From contig NHNW01000117.1 in the NCBI GenBank assembly GCA_002786025.1, positions 417 through 30,481 on the forward strand: a DNA stretch of 30,065 nucleotides. The letters are read 5' to 3'. Origin of the DNA: Zasmidium citrigriseum (Eukaryota > Ascomycota > Dothideomycetes > Mycosphaerellales > Mycosphaerellaceae). This document shows, piece by piece, positions 2,360 through 30,065 of the stretch (positions within the stretch are counted from its first letter, which is position 1; each line of letters opens with the position of its first letter). The notes beneath the pieces are model-generated. The model was not told where the DNA came from and ran no database searches. It worked only from the letters and a program-made list of their open reading frames with translations. The position numbers were made by a program, and so were the translations under genes.

Positions 2360-2935
2360 ATAAAGTACCTATTGTTAGCTAAGTACCTAATCTAACGACG
2401 GTTTTAGAACCCTAAAGCTAGTCCGTCTTAACTATAAACGTCCTTAAAAGCTCCTCGTAAAATAGTACTAGTAAAGGCGCTATATAAAACTATAAAAGTA
2501 CCTTAATAAAAGAAGAGAGCTAAGATAGTAATTAGAAAGGTATAAAAAAGTATAGCCTAAACTAGGCGTAAGAAAGTTATTATAAAGAAAACGGATTATA
2601 ATATACCTTATAAACGACGAAAATTTAATACTAGTTAAGCTACTCTACGTAAGATCTAGAAATATTAGGGCTCTACGAAATCTAGGTATTCCCTCCTTAT
2701 ATAAAAGGTGCCCTTCTAACGACTAGTTCGAGAGATTTCTAGTAAGTAGGCTATAGGTAGGGAAATTACAAGATAGTAGGCGTCTACGATTAAGGTATTA
2801 TAAGAAGCCGCTAAAGCGTTCCTTATCTTAGAATTCGAGTACTTTAACCTACTAGCTATCTACGCGAAACGCGTTACCCTTATATCGAAGGATATAGCTC
2901 TATATAAAAAGCTATAGTAGTACTAGACTAGCTAA
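2360..2935 (+). pseudogene. Divergent histone H3-like gene 1 (CENP-A/H3 fold), RIP-mutated
   Basis: Histone H3-family protein, read in frame 2 with no intron needed. The N-tail contains KAPRK at 2447-2461, followed at the correct spacing by a second Lys (IVLVKALYKT against QLATKAARKS in canonical H3). A basic linker leads to RRKF (about 2612), then ATLRKI-KY (RIP-altered TALREIRKYQ), LLI-KVPF-RLVREI (2693-2734), the alpha-2 segment KVL-EAAKAFL, and alpha-3 LLAIYAKRVTLISKDIALYKKL, ending near 2914. This is the full H3 core in order. Relative to canonical H3, two or three extra residues sit between the KYQ and LLI blocks and loop 1 is divergent, as in CenH3 variants; placing it as centromeric is inference. 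About sixteen in-frame TAG/TAA codons, mostly at Gln positions, make it non-functional. The start is uncertain: ATA at 2360 is the upstream limit used here. It lies head-to-tail with the second H3-like gene. Confidence 0.88.
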
Positions 2936-20314: not shown

Positions 20315-21481
20315 CTCTAGCTTAAATCCCTTAGATACCTCCTCCTAAATAATACGCTAGTTTAGTAATAGGCCTTATAGAAGGTTATCCTACTCTAGCG
20401 TAGTCTCCTAGATAATCTCTTCTATCTCCGTAAGATCGATAGGCTCTATACTCTTATAAGGGTTATACTTATTAAAGAACTTCTTCTTCTTAGTTATAAG
20501 ACGCTTTAGTTTAGTCTATAAGATATAGCTACTAACTAAACGCTCCTTAGGGAATACCTTCTAGATCTACTATATATAGTTATAGTAAGTACGAGTACCT
20601 AGCTTACTAACCTATATAGTAAGGACCTTTAGAAATATTATACGGCTTCGCTTTATCTTATCTATTAAGTCGTTAAGCTTCTTATTCGAGTTTCGCCTTA
20701 GATAGCGCTATAGGCCTAAGCTAGTCTACTAAACCTATACGTCCTTAACTTACGTACTAACTCGTATAGCTTAGCTAGCCTCTTCCTATCCCTCTAGTAG
20801 TAACTTACTCTTAGTAAAGTTATAGCGCCCTAGGTTAGTATCTAGATCGTTACTAGCGAGGTCCTTAGTATTAAGCTTATTATTATTAAGCTTATCCTTA
20901 GATTCCTTAGAACTCTCTATCTCGTAGTTAGAATTAGAGTTATCGTTATCTAGCTCCTCGACTAGCTACTAGACTATCTAATCTTAAGGCTACTCGACTA
21001 GTAGCTACTCGACTAGTATCTCCTTAACTAGTAGCTACTTAGCTAGTAGCTACTCGACTAGTAGCTTCTTAGCTAACTAACCTTAGCCTATAGCTAGGGT
21101 ACGAGTATAGGTAACCTCGTCTTAATATACCTACTACTCTTAATTAAGTTCTTTAGTATAAGCTAGCTCGCTAAGGCCTTTACTATATACTTACTACTAG
21201 GCCTAGAGCTCTTATTAATAGGCCTCTTCCTCGAGGGGATTAGTATTAATCTACTCGCTAAGGTTAAGCTTACTAGTCGTATTCTAGAGGTCTTATATAC
21301 TTAGCTAGGTAGTACTAGTTACTACTATAGTAGTTAGTAGTAGTAGAGAGCTAGAGCTATTATTATAGTCGAGTATATTAGTATTAGCTATAGCTAGGTA
21401 GACTCGGACTAGATCTAGTATTAGAAATAGTCTAGTAATACTAGACGCGTTACTAGTAATACTAGACGTATCGTTAGACAT

Positions 21482-22056
21482 ACTACTAGGTAGATTAGTT
21501 AAGTTACTAGGCCTAGGGGCGACCTATATAGCTATTAGTAGATATTTAGTAACTAAAACGGGGTGCCTCGACGAAATAGCTTATATAAATAGTAATTATA
21601 AAGGTCGAAACTATAAGCTTTAAGTATTAGATATTAAGAAAAGCGGTATTAAGGGTTACGATATTTACTAGCTATCTATCGTAACTATCCTATAAGTAGC
21701 TAAGCTAGCCCTAATAGCTTATAATACGATAACCCTAGTAAATACCTAGACCTTACTAAGGGAAGGGAAGGAAAGGGTTCTTCGTCTTCCCTTCCTGCTA
21801 ATATTAGGAAGGGGAAGATAAAATAATATATAGTCTAGCTAGAAATTATAGACGCTAGGAAAGAAAGGGGAAAGAGAAATTATAGGGAAGACTAGTATAG
21901 CGACTAGCACGGTATACAGACAGGCTAAAATTATAAAGTAGAGCTAGAAAGATCTTAAATACAAGTACTAAAAGGTTAATTTATTTAGCTATTAGTATAT
22001 AGGTAAGTACTAGGTATCTCGATCGAAGCGAAGAAGGTATAGCGCTAAAGAACTAT
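21482..22056. promoter_or_regulatory. 575-bp spacer upstream of the DUF6589-type gene, with purine/pyrimidine hairpins
   Basis: No gene is seen. This stretch keeps more CA/TG than its surroundings (for example near 21796 and 21905-21925). Purine-rich GAAGGGAAGG-type sequence at 21760-21777 can pair with CTTCCCTTCCT at 21786-21796, which can also pair with AGGAAGGGGAAG at 21807-21818, so two mutually exclusive hairpins are possible. It should contain the promoter of the DUF6589-type gene and the 3' end of the H3-like gene on the same strand. Confidence 0.45.
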
Positions 22057-22873
22057 CTACTTATTATCGACATTCTCGTCGTCGTCGTTATTATTAACGA
22101 CTAGCTTCCGCTTTATAACGACCGTCTTACCCTTACCCTTTATAGACTTCCTACTACTACCTAAAAACTCTACTCTCGTTACGTTATATAGAGACGGCCG
22201 ATAGTACTTATTAGGAATCGATAGCTCTAAGCCCTTCGCTATAAGCTTCTTTATATTCTTAGCTATCGTAGTATTACGCTAGATTAAGGTACTAGTATAT
22301 ACCTTCTTTAGGCTAATATAGTAGATTATACTATAGGCCGCTACTATAGCTTATTAGTAAATAGACGGTTAAAGTCGGATTAAAAGTAGATATACTATTA
22401 AAGTATTATACGCCGAAGCCCTTTATAATACCCTAAAGGAGGATAGAGGTATCCTATAAGACGTATAGGCTACTCTTCTTAGTAGTAATAAGCTCTCGAA
22501 CTACGCGGTAGAACGCTAACTAAGGGATTAAGAAGAAGCGACCTAGGCGTGTATCGCTATCTAGTAGAGTATATATATCTACAACCTTACGTCTCGCCTC
22601 GCCTATAAAGTATTAGCTCTATCCTAACTAGTATAGGGACTAGTATAGTCTTAATATACGCGCCTTACTAGCTACTATTACTTTCTTAGCCTTTCTAATA
22701 CGAATCTTCTCTCTAAAGCGACTAATACGGTAGCCCGTAATACCGCTATAGGCTACTCTAAGAGCTCTAGTAGTAGTAGAGCTACTCTTTCGCTTCTACT
22801 ACTATACTTAGTTATAGGCGCTAGTAAGCCTCTTACTTAGCGCCTTTCTCGCGGTCTACTTAGTACGCGCTAT
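22057..22873 (-). pseudogene. Histone H3-like gene 3 with near-canonical N-terminus, RIP-mutated
   Basis: The minus strand from 22873 reads ATA-GCG-CGT-ACT-AAG-TAG-ACC-GCG-AGA-AAG, that is M-A-R-T-K-Q-T-A-R-K with ATG as ATA and CAG as TAG: the first ten codons of histone H3 including the K4 and K9 contexts. The residue after K9 is Ala rather than Ser10. A longer than usual basic tail (about 110 residues) leads to FFLIP.LAFYRVVRELI, equivalent to LLIRKLPFQRLVREIA, then SSLYVL.DTSILL (alpha 2), the 88-nt intron, and AAYSIIYYISLKKVYTS followed by TLI.RNTTIAKNIKKLI, matching HAKRVTIMPKDIQLARRI. A C-terminal extension (GSSRKSIKGKGKTVVIKRK, then an Asn/Asp-rich end) follows. Exons of 442 and 287 bases total 243 codons. 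The stop at 22057-22059 could itself be a mutated CAG. It is 575 bp upstream of the DUF6589-type gene on the same strand. Confidence 0.87.
22344..22431 (-). other. 88-nt intron in H3-like gene 3
   Basis: On the minus strand it starts GTATTA and ends TACTAATAAGCTATAG, giving a donor, a CTAAT branch motif and an acceptor. It removes sequence that would interrupt H3 helix 2 directly after the ALQ-equivalent and joins it to the AA-containing remainder of the helix. The total coding length becomes divisible by three. The donor at 22431 was chosen by this alignment; a second GT lies 20 bases further in. Confidence 0.65.
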
Positions 22874-22952
22874 AATATCGCTTCGATTTACTTGTTAATA
22901 ACGGCGATAATAGCGGTTTCGAATTATATATATAAGGGGTTTAGACGAAAGG

Positions 22953-22986
22953 CGAGCTCGCTATTAAAATATTAATAGCGAGCTCG
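22953..22986. repeat. 15-bp perfect inverted repeat (hairpin) in the divergent spacer
   Basis: CGAGCTCGCTATTAA and TTAATAGCGAGCTCG are separated by AATA. It lies 80 bases upstream of the H3-like gene 3 start, in the spacer (22874-23079) between that minus-strand gene and plus-strand sequence. It could be an operator-like palindrome, a mobile-element terminus or a replication/processing hairpin; nothing in the sequence decides. Both arms remain perfectly paired despite heavy mutation around them. Confidence 0.8.
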
Positions 22987-23079
22987 TAATAGTTAGTATA
23001 GTAACGTACGGCGGCGGCGACCTATCGCTATCGTTAGTATATCTAAACCGTAGGTAAGAATATATCGACGATATACTAG

Positions 23080-24070
23080 CTACTACTATACGTATATTAA
23101 AGAGCTAACCTAGAGTCGCTAGTAGGGGTATAGGTAAAGGGAAGAGGATTAAGTTTACTAGTAATACTATTATATAGTACCTTAGCCCGCTATAGCTTAC
23201 TCCTTCCCTTATCGAAGACTCCTATATAATACTATTAAAGCGAAGACACGAGTAAGGTATAGTAAAGCCGATCTAAGAATATAAAGGCTAGGATTAAAGT
23301 ATATAAGAGTAAGCGTACTAGTCGTAATAGTCTAAAGCCGAAAAGCCGATACTATTAGAAGTCCCTAGCGACGTAACACGAGAAGCTCTTACCGAAAGTA
23401 TAAGCTTTTAACTAGCGGATTATATAATCGAAGAGTCCTTTAGTAGGTAGGTAGGTAGTATAGTTAGGACTAGAGCTCGTAGTATATCCGTAGCGATAGT
23501 ATAGGTATAAGGGCCTAAGTAAGAGGATTTAATTAATATATAGGTATAGACGTTAATAGTAGCCTCTAGTAGTAGTATATTCTAAGATAGTCCTCGTACT
23601 AGCTCTTTATATACGAATAGGGATCGTAGCGATAGGCGATAAGAAAGGAGGTCGTCTTCTCGTAACTTAGCCTAAGGAATCCGTCGATATTAGTAGTAGT
23701 ATATTCTAAGCTAGTCTAGTATATAGATCTTCGAATATATATCGAGAAAGCGATCTAGTAGGCTAACGATATTAAAGACAGACTTAGTAAGAAGCGAAGA
23801 GAGACTTTATAGTAGGCGAATATCTAGGTAACGGATATTAAAGAGGTAGCTAGTCTTCGCTATACCGTAAATATACTATCGACGTATATTGTTAGAGAAG
23901 AGTCTATTAGTAGAGGTGTTATTAATACTAGAGCTAGGCCCTCGTAGGGGAAGAAGTTCGTACTAGTCGTACTAGTCTAGGGAAATAAGATCTTAAGCGT
24001 ATAGTAGACTTATCTACTTACGTCTATACTAGTAACTTATCTATTAGAAGAATCTTGTCTCGTAGTATTT
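23080..24070 (+). pseudogene. Possible coding remnant A, Ser/Arg/Gln-rich, unrecognised
   Basis: A plus-strand frame with blocks of coding-like composition, for example SPLQLTPSLIED, a stretch around 23370 reading VPSDVTREALTESIS, and an Arg/Ser-rich part NRDRSDRRQERRSSSRN at about 23613 (Q inferred from TAA). I know no family for it. Because TGA is absent in RIP-mutated DNA, a frame that is open when TAR is read as Gln carries little weight, so this is a weak call based on composition only. It is divergent from H3-like gene 3 across the hairpin spacer. Confidence 0.28.
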
Positions 24071-24149
24071 ATATAAGCCTTATATCTCTTTACTAAATTA
24101 TTACTCTTTTTGTATATAATATAAGATTAAGACTATATTTAAACTCGCG

Positions 24150-25748
24150 GACGAGGTGCGCCTTAGCGGCTTCTTATAGAGCGAATAATACGTTAGACTA
24201 GAAACGTAGGTTATACTTAAATATAGTAGCTACCTCGCGAACGAGTCGTATAAACGATATCTAAGGGATAATAAGGTCGTAAGTCTTCTATATCTATCGA
24301 ATCTTACGTAGAGTAACTATACCTAGCTTCTATTTACGATAGCTAGTTACTACTCTACCTAGTACTATTTTGCGGCTAGTCGACGATATCTTATTCTTAA
24401 GTAGCTTTCTAAATCGCCTCCTTCGTTTTAGAGTATTACTCTAAATTAGTACTATATATCGACCTTTCGTTAGCGTACGTTTAGCCTTTAGCTTAGTCGT
24501 TTTCCTCGCTAAGGATAGGTTTAGTAGTAGTATTATAGGACCGTCGCCTAGTTATAGAACTAGTAGTAGTATTTAGATAGTAGAGAAAGTATAGTCTACG
24601 GCTAGGCCTAAAGAAAACATTATAATCGTGTTAGTATAGTACTAAATAAAGACCTAGCCGTATAGGGGATTAATACTAAGGATATAAAGAGAAGACGCGT
24701 TAACGAGCTCTATTATAATAATACGGCTAGGTCTATACGGAAGTCGATATACCGTATACTATACCTATCGAACTATCGTATAACTAATCTAATTAACGAC
24801 GAAATTAGTACTACTTAGATATAGTTTAAGCTTAAAGCTAGCGCGGAAAATCTAGCTAAGGCTAGAGACTAGTACGACTACTACGACTACTACGGCTATT
24901 AGTTTTTAAATCGTTTAGGCTAGACTTTCGAACACTTACCGAGCTACGAGAAATAAGAAGCCCCTCCTTATATTATAGTCGATTCGATCGTTGTATCTAG
25001 TAAGAGGGCTATCTAGGTAGCCTAGGCTATATCCTACCTATCCTAGCTATAATAGGGATTAGTATCGTCTTAATATATAGAGCTAGCTATAAGCCTTTAC
25101 TTCGAGCGTCCGAGTTAGTCGTACCTTCTCCTTCGAAGGAGATTAGTATATTCTAATATACTAGCTTAGGTTCTCGTAATAGCTAAGGAAGTCGTTCCTT
25201 TAGTTAGTTACTAGCTTACTTCCTATATTAACTACCTACGATTATAAGCTTCCTAATACTATATTAGTACCTTCTCGTCGCTTCTAATCGTCTTCTTCTT
25301 CCTTATTACTAATAACCTCGATATTGCTATTAAAGAGGTATCGTCGTTACTAGGAGTCTATTACCTAGTAACGGCGATATTAATATAGCGACGCTAGCGA
25401 GTTTAGGCGATAATACGCCTTTCCTACGCCTCCTCTCGCTATTTATACTAATATCTAGCCGCTCGTTTATACATAAGTCGTATATTAATCGTATCGCTAC
25501 CCGTATACCTAAAAGCTATTATAGAGTACGACTTACTAGCGAGAATAAAGCGATAGAGATCTAATTCGCTAGTAACGCTATAGAAGCGTACGAAATCCGA
25601 GGATAAGACGCCTTTCCGTACTACGCTATAGTAGCAAAAGGCCCTAGAAGAGAAGTCTAAGAAGCCGAATACTATAAGAGAGAACTTATAAGCGCTATGT
25701 AAATCGAGCTCTAAGATAGGAGGCTATCGAGAAAGCGCGTACAAGTAA
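24150..25748 (+). pseudogene. Possible coding remnant B, unrecognised
   Basis: A plus-strand frame with several long stretches that are free of TAR and protein-like, notably at about 24680-24830 (KRRRVNELYYNNTARSIRKS, then LINDEISTT) and at 24855-24920 (KLKASAENLAKARD). A hydrophobic stretch near 25280 reads SSLLIVFFFLITNNLDIA, and a Lys-rich C-terminal part at 25590-25720 includes KRTKSEDKTPFRTTL and ALEEKSKKPNTIRENL. A neighbouring frame continues with NKDYLALSPTK.ATKLSEKE at about 25785-25840, which suggests an intron or shift near 25700. No family recognised. The composition argues for a former gene; the boundaries are guesses. Confidence 0.38.
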
Positions 25749-26049
25749 GCGTAAAGCTATCCGTCGTCTCGAGAGGAATAAAGACTACCTCGCGCTATCT
25801 CCTACTAAGTAGGCTACTAAGCTAAGCGAGAAAGAAGCGTTTTATAACTAGAAGATCCTATATATTAAGACTCCTTTAGTAGCGTAGTAGTCGTACTAGT
25901 TAGGATCTAGACTAATAGTATATATAGTATAGCCTAGTAGGCTACCTACTCTAAGCTAATAGATATTAATAATAAGCTAGAGAGCGAGGAAGAGTATATT
26001 TCTAGTAGTAGTATATTCTATTATAGTCTTAAATATAGCTAACTATATA

Positions 26050-27050
26050 TATAGTAAGATACTTAAGATAGTTAAGAAGGAAGAATAGTTAGCTGTTAGA
26101 TAGAAGCTATAAGTTTAAAGTCTCTATTAGTAGCGTACTAGTCTATACTAGTCTATACTTAAGCTAACGAAATATATAGCTTATAAGACTACTAGGCTAA
26201 TAACGATAACGATAACGAGCTCTTCGGAGAGCCCGATAATAAGGGATAGTAGGATCCTATCGAGGAGCTAGATAGTAAGGAGTTCGATAAGTTCGTAGAG
26301 ACTAGTCTAGTCCTTTTCTAGTAGGTTAATCGTATTATTTGTAAGAAGTAGTATACTATCGAGATAGAAGATAGTCTCGAACGTAGCCCTAGTAGGTACT
26401 AGATACGTATATACTAGACTTTAATACGGAAATAGCGCCTCTACGATATAGTCGTCTAATCGTAGCGCGTCCGCCCTCGCGCCTATAGCTAGCTAAATAC
26501 CTATAACGTAGCGATACTAGTCGACTCTAAGGGACTTCTCTTTATCGTTAAGGTTATTAGTAAGTATTAGTCTTTCCGTAAGACTTATTAGATCTCGATT
26601 AAGAATATTATAAGTATTTCTTTACTCTCTTAACAAATATAGCTAACGTATTTATAGGATACGTATAATATATCTATCGAGTAGATAAATGCTAGCTATC
26701 TAATACCTCGGCTATATAAGGTCTTTACGAAGGCCGAGATATCGTTATAGAGTAACTTAATATCGTAGAACGTAGAGGCTTAGTACCCTTAGTAGTTAAT
26801 ACGCCGCTAGTATAGCGTTAGAGAGGATAAGGAGGCTAAGGATAAAAATAAGTTTACGCTACCTAGTCTAGCTAAGGTCTAGCCTAATAATAATAATTAT
26901 CTAGAGAGGTTTAGCTTTATTACTACAAAGGATCCTAAGGAAGTAAGGGCGTTATTTAAGTATTACGAGGCCCTCGCGGATAATAAGGTAGATCTTAACG
27001 CGCTTTCTAAGAAGCGCTAGGTCTCTTTAGACCCTAATAAACTATCGTAG
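26050..27050 (+). pseudogene. Possible coding remnant C, unrecognised
   Basis: A plus-strand frame. The best-supported part is 26820-27020, where about 65 codons contain a single TAG: VREDKEAKDKNKFTLPSLAK, then YLERFSFITTKDPKEVRAL and FKYYEALADNKVDLNALSKK. Upstream in the same frame are NDNDNELFGEPDNKG and EELDSKEFDKFVETSLVLF (about 26205-26325), an acidic segment. No domain is recognised. It may be the C-terminal part of the same gene as remnant B, joined by introns I could not place. Confidence 0.4.
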
Positions 27051-28088
27051 GCATAAGCTTTCGTCTTTTAGATACTATAAATAAACATCTTAGACTACGT
27101 TTACTCGTTCTCTCGATTCTTAACTTCTATTATATAGTTTCTTAACGAAGGTTAAGAGGATTCTATATAGAACGCGTTTATTTACTTTAAAATTAGTAAA
27201 TATCCGAGCCTTAGAAAAATACTATTTTGTAATATTCCTCTATAGTAGCTGTAAATACTAAGGTATTCGCTTTAAATTAAAATAGTATTTTCTCTAACTA
27301 GTACGGACTAGTACGGCTTAATCTTAAGCTTATTAATTATCTTCTTACCTTATTGTCGCCGTCTTTCTATTAACTCTAAGCTATAATCGAGTAACCCTTA
27401 AGTTATAACCCTAACGCTAGATTAATTAAGAAACGATCGCCTTTATTTCTAAAGTACGAATAGTATAGGCGGCTAAGAGTTAGGCGTTAAGCTAGCTATA
27501 GTAGACTAGGCTTAATATAGTAGGCTTAGCGATAACGACCCGCGATTTCGAAATTATTAGACGAGGTATCTACTCTATACTTTAACGCTATCTTACTATT
27601 AACACTTACTTATCTTTTTATAGTTAAGCGTATAATAATCTTTATTATAAGGAGCTCGTATAGTATAGCTAGCGTAGTAAGTAGCGAGTAGCTCTAGCTA
27701 GCGGCCTACTAAGTATTAAAGTAGTAGTAGGAGCGTTCCTATAGCTTCCTAAACTTCTAGTAGGAAATTTATAACTATTTCCTTCTCTCTTTCTATACTA
27801 TTATTTACGTATACTATCTAGCGCGTTTCTATACTATATTATAGTTAATACTCCCTCTTACACCTACTCGTAGTACTAGTCGAGCCTTTTCTACTACCTA
27901 CCTCGACCCTAACGATAATTTATTATTTACTATATTACTAACGAATATACTATAGCGTTCCCTACGATATTAAGCGGTAGCTTCGTTATAGGAGCCTACG
28001 AATAATAGTCCTTCGTTAAGGACGCGTTTACGAGTCTCTAACTCCCTCGATAGCTAGCGTACGCCTATATATAATACTAATAAAGATA
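27051..28088. other. About 1 kb without a supported gene
   Basis: AT-rich, RIP-mutated sequence between coding remnant C and the right-hand hAT transposase. No domain motif was recognised on either strand. The 5' terminal repeat and promoter of the hAT element should lie in its right half. TGT/CAA/GCA traces at 27050 and 27223-27251 show slightly weaker mutation locally. Confidence 0.35.
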
Positions 28089-28490
28089 ATGCCTAAGTAG
28101 CTACAACGTTTACGAAGAGAGAGGACTACTATATCTTTAATCGAGAATATAAGAAGTAGTTTATCGACTTCTATAGCTACACCCCCTATACTAACCTAAT
28201 ACGTTTACGAGTTAGAGAAGAGAAAGCGAAGAAGCGATTTATATAATAGGGCTCTACGAAAAAGGCTACGGAATAGATAGTATTCGAAGAGGGTATATAG
28301 ATCTCTAACGGCGAGCCTAAGGTTATCTATAAGGTCTATCGTACTATACTAAAGCACCCGAGTATTAATAATATAGGGAACTCTAAATTAAAGTAGTACC
28401 TAGAGAAGAAATCTTATAAGGACTTATAGGTATCGACTATAAGCGGAAGGAAACGCTAGCTCGACCTTAACGAGGGATTTCGAGTTTAGG

Positions 28491-28535
28491 TACGCTAACT
28501 AGTACGCTAACTAGTACGCTAACTAGTACGCTAAC
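28491..28535 (+). repeat. 12-bp tandem repeat, 3.75 copies, inside hAT 2
   Basis: The unit TACGCTAACTAG starts at 28491, 28503, 28515 and 28527; the last copy is partial. It adds four residues per unit in any frame and lies between the BED finger and the catalytic region. Confidence 0.9.
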
Positions 28536-29876
28536 GATTTATAGAGGTAGAAGCTAGCCGAAAACGCGGTATATAAAGACGGATTCGAAGCTAATAGCCC
28601 TTACGACTTTAGAATCTATTAGGTGAACGCTTATATTAGTACTAGCGCACTAGTAACGTTTTTTAAGAATATCTATATATAGAGGAGCCTTAAGTACCTA
28701 TATAAGGACGTAAAGATACTATTACTATTAACGGTCCGCCGCTAGATTAAGGATACTACTAGTAATATTATTAAGAAGATTCGTAACAAACTATACTATC
28801 CTAAGAGTGTCGATTCGAAGGTAGCTATTACCCTCGACGCCTAGAGTACCTCTAATTGTCGACTAGCCTTTCTCGGTATTAAGGGCTTTTAGATCGATTA
28901 AGACTAGACGTACTATAAGGAGCTTCTATCCTTCGCCGAGATTAAGGGGTAGTATACTAGCGTAAACCTCTATTAATACGTAGATTAGATAATAATAAAC
29001 TTTAACCTAAAGGAGCGGATCTTAGCGTTTACTACTAATAACGCTTTAAATAATAAGACGCTTTATACTACTATATAAGCTCGAAAAGCCTACTACCCCT
29101 ATTTCCTATCTAATATTACTATAGCCTCTCTTATCTTCGGGCGTATACTAATAATACCTACCTAAACGGTAGTATAGGTACTAGGGACGGCTAGGTAGCG
29201 CTACTAGTAGTATAGGTTACGACTCTAGATAGGTAGAGCTTAACTATAACTATTATAGGCTTAGAACTAACTAAAGAGGAGTTGAAGAAATAGCTATAAC
29301 TAGTACTATACCTCGTATACGTTATTTAGCTCGCTATTAGTAATCTATATACCGCCCTTAAGATTCGTCTATCGAACAATAAGTTTAAACGGAACTATAA
29401 TAAAAAGGAGTAGAAGTAATTTATCGAAGACGCTAGGACTACTAACAAAGAATATAGATATCTATATATTCTCGCTAAGGTAAGTATAATTCTAAGCTAT
29501 ACTAGTCGTACTAGTTAAGCTTACGTCGCCTAGCTCCGAGCCTCTATTTTATGGATTCTCGCTAGTACGTAGCGACTTAAGAAGTTCCTAAAACTCTAAG
29601 AAGATACGCTACGTATAGAGGAAACGTTTAGTAACAAGTGTTACGGCTAGGGTATATTTAATACGAAATATCGACAAATAAGACCGTTAGTACTAGTATA
29701 AGATATTAAAACCCGCTAGGATTCTACTACCTATATACTTATCTAGTATATTAATCTATACCGCTTTATCGACTAGTATCTATATTAGGAAGGTTAGGAT
29801 TACCTCCGCGTTAATAATACCGAGTTACTCTAAGTCTAGGAAATCCTCTACCTCGCGTAGCCGTTTACTTACTATA

Positions 29877-29878
29877 NN
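29877..29878. other. Two undetermined bases (NN)
   Basis: The only ambiguous bases in the window, inside the hAT 2 gene at a Phe-Thr-Tyr-Tyr segment. They probably mark a polishing or scaffolding uncertainty in near-identical repeats. Confidence 0.95.
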
Positions 29879-30065
29879 TCGTTAATAAGCTCGTCGATAG
29901 GCCTAACTCTATACCTTATATACCTATACTACTCTAACCTCTTCGTTTAACTCGAGAAAGCCGAGTTAAACCTACGTAGGAAGTAGAACTAGTAGAAGTA
30001 CGCCCTACTTAATATAGTTAAGCTTATAAAGGCTAAGCTAATTAAGTATTATTCCGCTATAGCCT

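Follow-up and report, generated by a model that had tools for sequence, protein, structure and literature searches.

hAT elements with H3-like genes have been described in Pyrenophora (PMC3538342) and in Pseudocercospora, Cercospora and Sphaerulina (PMC6710886); according to the text of the second study, the 12 scanned genomes included that of Zasmidium cellare, which was not one of the six positives. In the Pyrenophora tritici-repentis element H3L (Manning et al. 2013, PMC3538342), the text describes a hAT with a dimerisation domain and an H3-like gene between its terminal inverted repeats (TIRs), an arrangement that the Zasmidium citrigriseum element reported here shares. The Pseudocercospora fijiensis hATs of Dhillon et al. 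2019 (PMC6710886), from the same fungal family, are described as 9.5-9.9 kb long with one or two H3-like stretches each, and resemble the present element in these respects as well as in their TIRs, 8-bp duplications, RIP inactivation and location in AT-rich blocks. Elements of this kind were formerly read mainly as cases of gene capture.

The present element conforms to the published Mycosphaerellaceae type, with H3-like genes between hAT TIRs and RIP mutations throughout, and differs from it in several ways. According to the text of Dhillon et al. 2019 (PMC6710886), the H3-like sequence is an intronless retrocopy matched mostly by the third exon, and the second H3-like copy differs by a 16-residue insertion. 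Of the two genes here, which we call H3a and H3b, H3b differs from an intronless retrocopy of host H3 in having an intron that host H3 lacks; the H3a core is unbroken. The main text of that study contains neither 'tail' nor 'N-terminal', whereas H3b has an H3-like start; the H3b core is missed by plain H3 searches, unlike the H3-like stretches described there, and the present element has a dimerisation domain where the text reports DUF659. Apparently new here are elements of three families that each carry a dissimilar pair of H3 genes, in which H3b has an intron and an H3-like start; the main texts of published reports yielded neither a two-gene H3 hAT nor an H3 with a K4-end tail carried by an element. 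In identity and architecture, the sequence under study is very probably H3b in a copy damaged by RIP, and H3b belongs to a tandem pair of H3-type genes of a hAT (Table 1).

Table 1. Features of the element, in window coordinates.
Feature	Position	Strand	Remarks
hAT element, family F1 subfamily A	21747..30065	.	left TIR TAGACCTTACTAAGGGAAGGGA from 21747; right end beyond contig end
H3b, H3-like gene	22057..22873	-	254 codons, one intron; start M-A-R-T-K-Q-T-A-R-K-A read through RIP
H3b exon 2	22057..22343	-	last fold helix, I-P-x-[KR]-[YF] motif, basic C-terminal tail
H3b intron	22344..22395	-	52 nt, phase 1, at codon aligning with H3 D106; alignment column and length shared with F1B, F4 and F2
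H3b exon 1	22396..22873	-	478 nt
H3a core	24060..24359	-	good H3 fold, tail not H3-like; phmmer, PF00125, protein search
Far half of element, probably transposase	28597..30065	+	no Pfam match in window

The hAT carrier

The window, the whole stretch of 30,065 nucleotides that was analysed, spans bases 417-30481 of contig C21 in a 44.4-Mb genome and reaches the end of that contig (30481). Among the best 120 of 1052 matches to the host protein TAF6, identity is 95% with Zasmidium cellare, 90% with Lecanosticta acicola, 88% with Dothistroma septosporum and 84% with Pseudocercospora eumusae, as for a fungus of the Mycosphaerellaceae close to Zasmidium and probably distinct from Z. cellare. It shows strong RIP-type damage, with CpA, TpG and TpA at 0.04, 0.03 and 1.86 of expectation, so the silenced repeat surroundings proposed from the letters alone are indeed RIP-mutated. 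The window contains no ORF of 100 amino acids, and bases 1-30000 gave no Pfam match at E 0.05 in one of the six frames. Damaged genes were read unrepaired: no base was restored, and stops were written as X or, in part of the searches, as Q.

The left end of the element is well defined, as 12 of the 14 other copies that reach it start at window position 21746/21747. Its terminal sequence TAGACCTTACTAAGGGAAGGGA has 15 copies in the genome, allowing up to 3 mismatches, and an inverted copy was found at all seven far ends fetched from relatives, about 2.0-2.2 kb past the position of the window end, so that the whole element measures about 10.4 kb. Perfect 8-bp duplications (agcgcgct, cgccgcct) flank two of the three copies with both ends on one contig (C133 and C76). 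In the third, on C90, the two flanks differ, and the left 8-mer recurs as the right flank of the C70 copy (atttcgag); the sharing of flanks between these two loci (L067 and L061) may reflect recombination between elements. Left and right flank 8-mers also agree across contigs for C129/C13 and C13/C133. A 15-base tandem repeat array lies immediately outside the element, at 20974-21090.

The hAT dimerisation domain Dimer_Tnp_hAT (PF05699) has 11 matches in the genome. Seven of these lie on the + strand 376-382 bases past the position of the window end, outside the window itself, and an eighth (C96) adjoins the inverted repeat of the element; in the relative L065 the match has an E of 4.5e-6. Within the window, where the frame is too damaged for DDE catalytic residues to be read, a transposase was sought in nine translated stretches of 24900-30065, none of which scored above a Pfam cut-off. 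DUF659, with seven matches in the genome, is a mark of other hATs, and none of its matches is close to a histone-domain H3 match; C72 carries both a DUF659 match and an F1 fragment, separated by over 600 kb. On sequence grounds (TIRs, 8-bp duplications and a hAT domain) the carrier is a hAT transposon, in agreement with the original prediction that the gene was borne on a once mobile repeat.

The two H3-type genes

H3a is readily recognised. Its core matched yeast H3 in phmmer (E 8.5e-15) and PF00125 (E 9.1e-11), and 56 of 104 candidates from 5.8 billion proteins reached E <=0.001, all with a histone domain; the best match covered 55% of the query at 48% identity, and the best E was 1.2e-16. 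The core has no intron. The tail is not H3-like: upstream of the core, even the best matches to an H3 start differed at 6 of 21 bases.

H3b is the converse. On the minus strand from 22873 the codons are ATA GCG CGT ACT AAG TAG ACC GCG AGA AAG GCG, translated as I-A-R-T-K-stop-T-A-R-K-A, and would read as the start of H3 if ATA derives from a RIP-mutated ATG and TAG from CAG. These are the H3 codons first noticed at this locus, and I-A-R-T-K-stop-T-[A/T]-R-K-A stands in all nine close copies (subfamily F1A); the first base and the last base of the stop (22057) also agree with the predicted gene ends. Scored against the H3 tail ARTKQTARKS, residues 1-9 were found in 9/9 F1A copies (Q from TAG), with residue 7 being Ala in six and Thr in three; K4, K9 and Ala10 are present and Ser10 absent in all nine. 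In the window, positions 10-12 are Ala10, Leu11 and Ser12, and H3 Ser10, Thr11 and Gly12 are all lost. When up to 2 mismatches are allowed, a 27-base pattern of this tail occurs 11 times in the 44.4-Mb genome (the nine repeat copies, the host H3 gene on C71 and one probable chance match on C83) and its reversal not at all. The start is H3-like and not like a CenH3 tail. A separate host gene at L003, with the start MPPKKTSRKSTGGKAPQKG, is presumably CenH3. At L002 (C69) the host has an H3 variant whose core is readable and whose start is MARTSKLRCTLI..., a non-canonical tail unless an intron lies there.

The intron had been proposed too, and fits the fungal consensus (GTATAT...CTAAT...TATAG) in a 52-nt, phase 1 model whose donor and branch site are kept in both F1 subfamilies, including all three sister-subfamily copies that reach it. 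An 88-nt model (donor GGTATT) was dropped; its donor GT is suspected to be made by RIP, since one of the nine copies, C13b, has GC at that site. Every translated copy of H3b in F1, F4 and F2 carries internal stops. The copies differ mostly by whole CG to TA dinucleotide swaps in the alignment, as if CpG decay had given CpA/TpG and RIP had then completed the change.

Single-sequence searches do not recognise the H3b core. Pfam scans with X at stops gave no match at E 0.1 (query 22888 to 22350, five codons early and in the right frame), a protein database search with exon 1 returned 35 candidates and none at E <=10, and a PDB sequence search with exon 1 had none at E 10 (both queries 22888 to 22411, again five codons early with the frame right). 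Yeast H3 against H3b of F1 gave best domains of 2-9 bits in the nine of 12 copies listed by phmmer. A single-sequence structure model, built with no alignment, had a pLDDT of 60.5, which is low confidence. For H3b of F2, on the other hand, yeast H3 gave E values of 1.1e-5 to 9.7e-4 in 8/8 copies with the search size set to 1000.

At the level of profiles the divergent H3 core of the original prediction was recovered where Pfam had found nothing, and it is at this level only that the H3-type fold is seen in the H3b of the window. In HHalign, a profile of 11 H3b core rows scored 36.1 (P 2.6e-5) with one built from 39 H3-type cores, as against a maximum of 19.9 in 200 column shuffles, none of which was as high; with the F1 cores removed from the template the score was 33.1. 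Single-sequence H4, H2A and H2B controls are fairly compared only with single H3, not with the H3-type profile: the H3b profile scored 27.0 with single H3 and 8.8-13.4 with single H4, H2A and H2B, and in a second set, with F4 added, 27.8 and up to 17.5, respectively. The incomplete B_C58 and the F4 copy on C121, which has a one-base insertion, were left out of HHalign. Shuffles as high as the real alignment numbered 0/200 for subfamily A alone, 23/200 for subfamily B alone, 1/200 for F4 alone and 0/200 for the three lineages together; the subfamily B core alone is thus not recognisable as H3 from its sequence. A chance origin of the likeness is rejected on the shuffles and the reversed-pattern control.

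Compared with canonical H3, the element retains residues 1-9 in subfamily A, the H3a core and the fold alignment of H3b. H3b itself has lost S10, T11, G12 and most core residues, and has gained the codon-106 intron and a C-terminal extension.

Relatives and selection

At least 49 histone-domain matches occur in the genome, all inside the stretches examined. Those in RIP-damaged sequence are all best to H3, and matches to H2A, H2B and H4 are confined to GC-rich host loci. The H3-carrying repeats were sorted into six families (F1-F6), with F1 comprising subfamily A, that of the window, and its sister B. A core tree of 105 columns, made from damaged sequences and with 7/20 inner branches weak, joins F1 with F4 (99/97) and places F2, F3 and F6 together (96/94), with host H3 separate from both groups. 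DNA near F4 copies is shared with the far half of F1 at 68-72%, and an F4 element end starts TAGGTATTACTATAGG.

The tandem H3a and H3b pair is seen in F1, F4 and F2, with H3b about 1.3 kb downstream of H3a in F4 and about 0.4 kb in F2. H3b starts with M-G-K-T-K-R-T in F1B (Met through RIP; the translated copies exclude the incomplete one on C90) and with M-A-K-T-K-Q-T-A-S-S in five F4 copies, with Ile for Ala7 in C96 (Met and Gln read through RIP); the F4 copy on C90 has M-A-R-T-K-T-T-T-G-G (Met through RIP). In F2 the gene reads M-A-R-I-K-R-P-T-A-Q-A-K-A-L-A-A-K-A-P-R-R-x-L-S-T-K-A, its tail likeness extending through K-A-P-R-R-x-L-S-T-K-A, and helices 2-3 align to H3 almost gap-free; the least damaged copy, on C120, has a real ATG. 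The F2 start was found in 8/9 loci searched (L032 had no match; L045 lay outside the search). Among copies with a located start, K4 is kept in 9/9 of F1A, 4/4 of F1B, 7/7 of F4 and 8/8 of F2. The tail feature common to the families is therefore the K4 end, [AG]-[RK]-[TI]-K; F1B, F4 and F2 have no ARKSTGG, and the A-R-K9 context is restricted to F1A. Of the claim that both the K4 and K9 contexts are preserved, the K4 half thus extends to the relatives and the K9 half to the window's own subfamily.

The 52-nt phase-1 intron lies in the same column in every copy tested (9/9 F1A, 3/3 F1B, 6/6 F4, leaving out C96, whose H3b diverges from the rest beyond its start, and 8/8 F2), at a codon where the host H3 core is unbroken. 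Since the intron is at the same codon, H3b is one gene, older than the split of F1, F4 and F2. The I-P-x-[KR]-[YF] motif of exon 2 is also common to F1B and F4. Tail likeness by itself is weak: matches with 3 mismatches also arise by chance in unrelated loci, and in a tail-only phmmer search the F2 and F1 starts scored 6-10 bits. The case for kinship, as read from the sequences, is carried by position, order and intron and not by tail likeness alone. F6 has a weaker H3b candidate whose start lacks K4 (2/2 copies), no H3b was seen by eye in three F3 loci, and F5 has two neighbouring H3-like genes.

Several other loci may be recorded here. The window itself holds an F2 H3a core at 2615-2914 (+), with an H3b beginning I-A-R-I-K-R-P-T-A from 3319 (+) and a like 52-nt intron. 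L004 (C120:307504-310866), the least RIP-damaged F2, has a hAT dimerisation domain (C120:310126-310260) upstream of H3a on the same strand, unlike the layout of F1. L044 (C1:303500-312500) has three H3-like stretches in 9 kb, and the gene at 2341-2796 of L005 seems by eye to retain an intron at the host KPG|T site.

Codon-position tests used transversions, a type of change that RIP cannot produce. In comparisons between families, these are in excess at third positions of the H3a core (for example 16/10/32 for F1B-F4, p 5e-4), and 10 of 16 pairs reached p <0.05, two of them involving host H3; four of the other six pairs are within-family, with at most two transversions each. The corresponding excess in H3b is unclear: 82/73/96 for F1A-F4 (p 0.058), 63/57/65 for F1A-F1B (p 0.33), 28/34/31 for the F4 pair (p 0.54) and 76/80/98 for F1B-F4 (p 0.045). 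Taken over its full length, H3b gives no clear sign of amino-acid selection in these sequences. Between subfamilies A and B, transversions per 100 bases amount to 0-2% in the H3a core, 3-16% in the inter-gene spacer, 9-35% in the H3a tail region, 14-30% in H3b and 9-37% in the stretch upstream of H3a (B_C133, a locus that stops short of the left end, was left unaligned there). Exchange between subfamilies may have contributed to the low values of H3a, since they include third positions. The divergence of H3b exceeds that of the spacer and not that of the stretch upstream of H3a, which fits relaxed change as well as adaptive change.

The start of H3b stands out from the rest of the gene between F1A and F4, and less so in the other pairs. 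With the start codon and the stop-for-Q taken as positions, the first seven are alike in 6/7 between F1A and F4, against 61/230 in the remainder; the values are 4/7 against 87/238 for F1A-F1B and 5/7 against 169/260 for F4 C60-C90. Exchange could also keep the starts alike, as F1A and F4 C60 are nearly identical at the DNA level, too, over their first 8 codons.

Possible function of H3b

The closest experimental parallel to H3b is a set of ectopic H3 tail mutants in Neurospora (Adhvaryu et al. 2011, PMC3248561). As reported in that text, S10A, T11A, G12P or K9 changes in ectopic H3 reduced DNA methylation semi-dominantly, and S10A and T11A beside wild-type H3 led to loss of DNA methylation in 5/5 and 5/5 tested, while K4L gave no reporter reactivation (0/6); DIM-5 needs R8-G12 and is inhibited by K4 dimethylation. 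H3b is like these mutants in having Ala10 and changed residues 11-12, an intact K4 and a normal H3 beside it, and is unlike them in that they were laboratory-made true H3 with an unchanged core and were not element-borne (PMC3248561). The original prediction had read the loss of Ser10 as a missing phospho-switch. Ser10 is absent, and Thr11 and Gly12 have gone with it; because A-L-S replaces S-T-G, a poor DIM-5 substrate that poisons chromatin would fit better.

The function that we tentatively prefer for H3b is that of a dominant anti-silencing histone. Live elements would have made both histones, and H3b would have entered host chromatin or competed for it. Once incorporated, it would still carry K4 marks and would be a poor substrate for the K9 methyltransferase, and the extra H3 of this make would weaken silencing as in Neurospora. 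Elements would then carry a dominant anti-silencing histone, since comparable extra H3 weakens silencing in Neurospora. It is conceivable, if rather doubtful, that an old hAT lineage carried a standard H3 pair for this purpose, with H3a supplying the core and H3b a tail that keeps K4 and disables the K9 site, the target being host K9 methylation and RIP-linked heterochromatin. Against an anti-silencing H3b stand its lack of a clear third-position excess, the internal stops in every translated copy and the start without K4 in F6. Taken as a whole, a two-H3 hAT with a proposed anti-silencing H3b is the best explanation and a fairly probable one, the anti-silencing function by itself being less likely than not. 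If true, a transposon attacks silencing by supplying a defective histone, in a natural version of the S10A/T11A experiment in Neurospora. Fungal DNA transposons are also said to carry TET/JBP genes.

Passive transduplication, with H3 captured accidentally by hATs and the tail a remnant yet to decay, is a serious contender that we nevertheless hold to be less likely than not. It is the main reading in the published texts on Pyrenophora and Pseudocercospora (PMC3538342, PMC6710886), and the fast divergence of H3b, with its unclear codon-position bias, would suit it. It does not readily account for a same-order H3 pair with a shared intron in families as distant as F1/F4 and F2, for a conserved H3a core, or for the retention of start, frame and intron phase in a gene whose identity elsewhere has dropped to 61/230 between F1A and F4. 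From the paired H3 genes, the shared intron, the split between core and tail and the distance of the families we argue instead that the histones were working parts of the element. A recent tail swap would explain the exact match of the window subfamily as young, its start having been gene-converted from exon 1 of host H3, and the first codons are near the host exon in DNA when RIP changes are allowed, with a less exact start in the sister subfamily. The starts of F1B, F4 and F2 are also H3-like, however, so the ancestor already had one, and among the seven codons that follow the start, Thr6 and Ala7 depart from the host sequence through non-RIP changes, leaving such a swap quite improbable.

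The H3b core may be too diverged for nucleosomes, which would count against an anti-silencing role. H3b might alternatively be a non-histone whose free N-terminus imitates H3 residues 1-6 and recruits or blocks K4-end readers, the divergent part serving otherwise, for instance by helping the transposase. The conserved K4 end, the unconserved K9 end and a core beyond the reach of Pfam are consistent with such a mimic, as is Ala or Gly at position 1, which permits removal of the initiator Met. The H3b of F2 is still histone-like, with tail likeness running past the K4 end and helices 2-3 that align, and F6 is without K4, so we consider a mimic unlikely, although less so than a tail swap. Some large DNA viruses carry histones, and an endogenous virus in place of a transposon was weighed for that reason; it is rejected as highly improbable, given TIRs with 8-bp duplications, the hAT domain and RIP-damaged histone matches that are all to H3 and none to H2A, H2B or H4.
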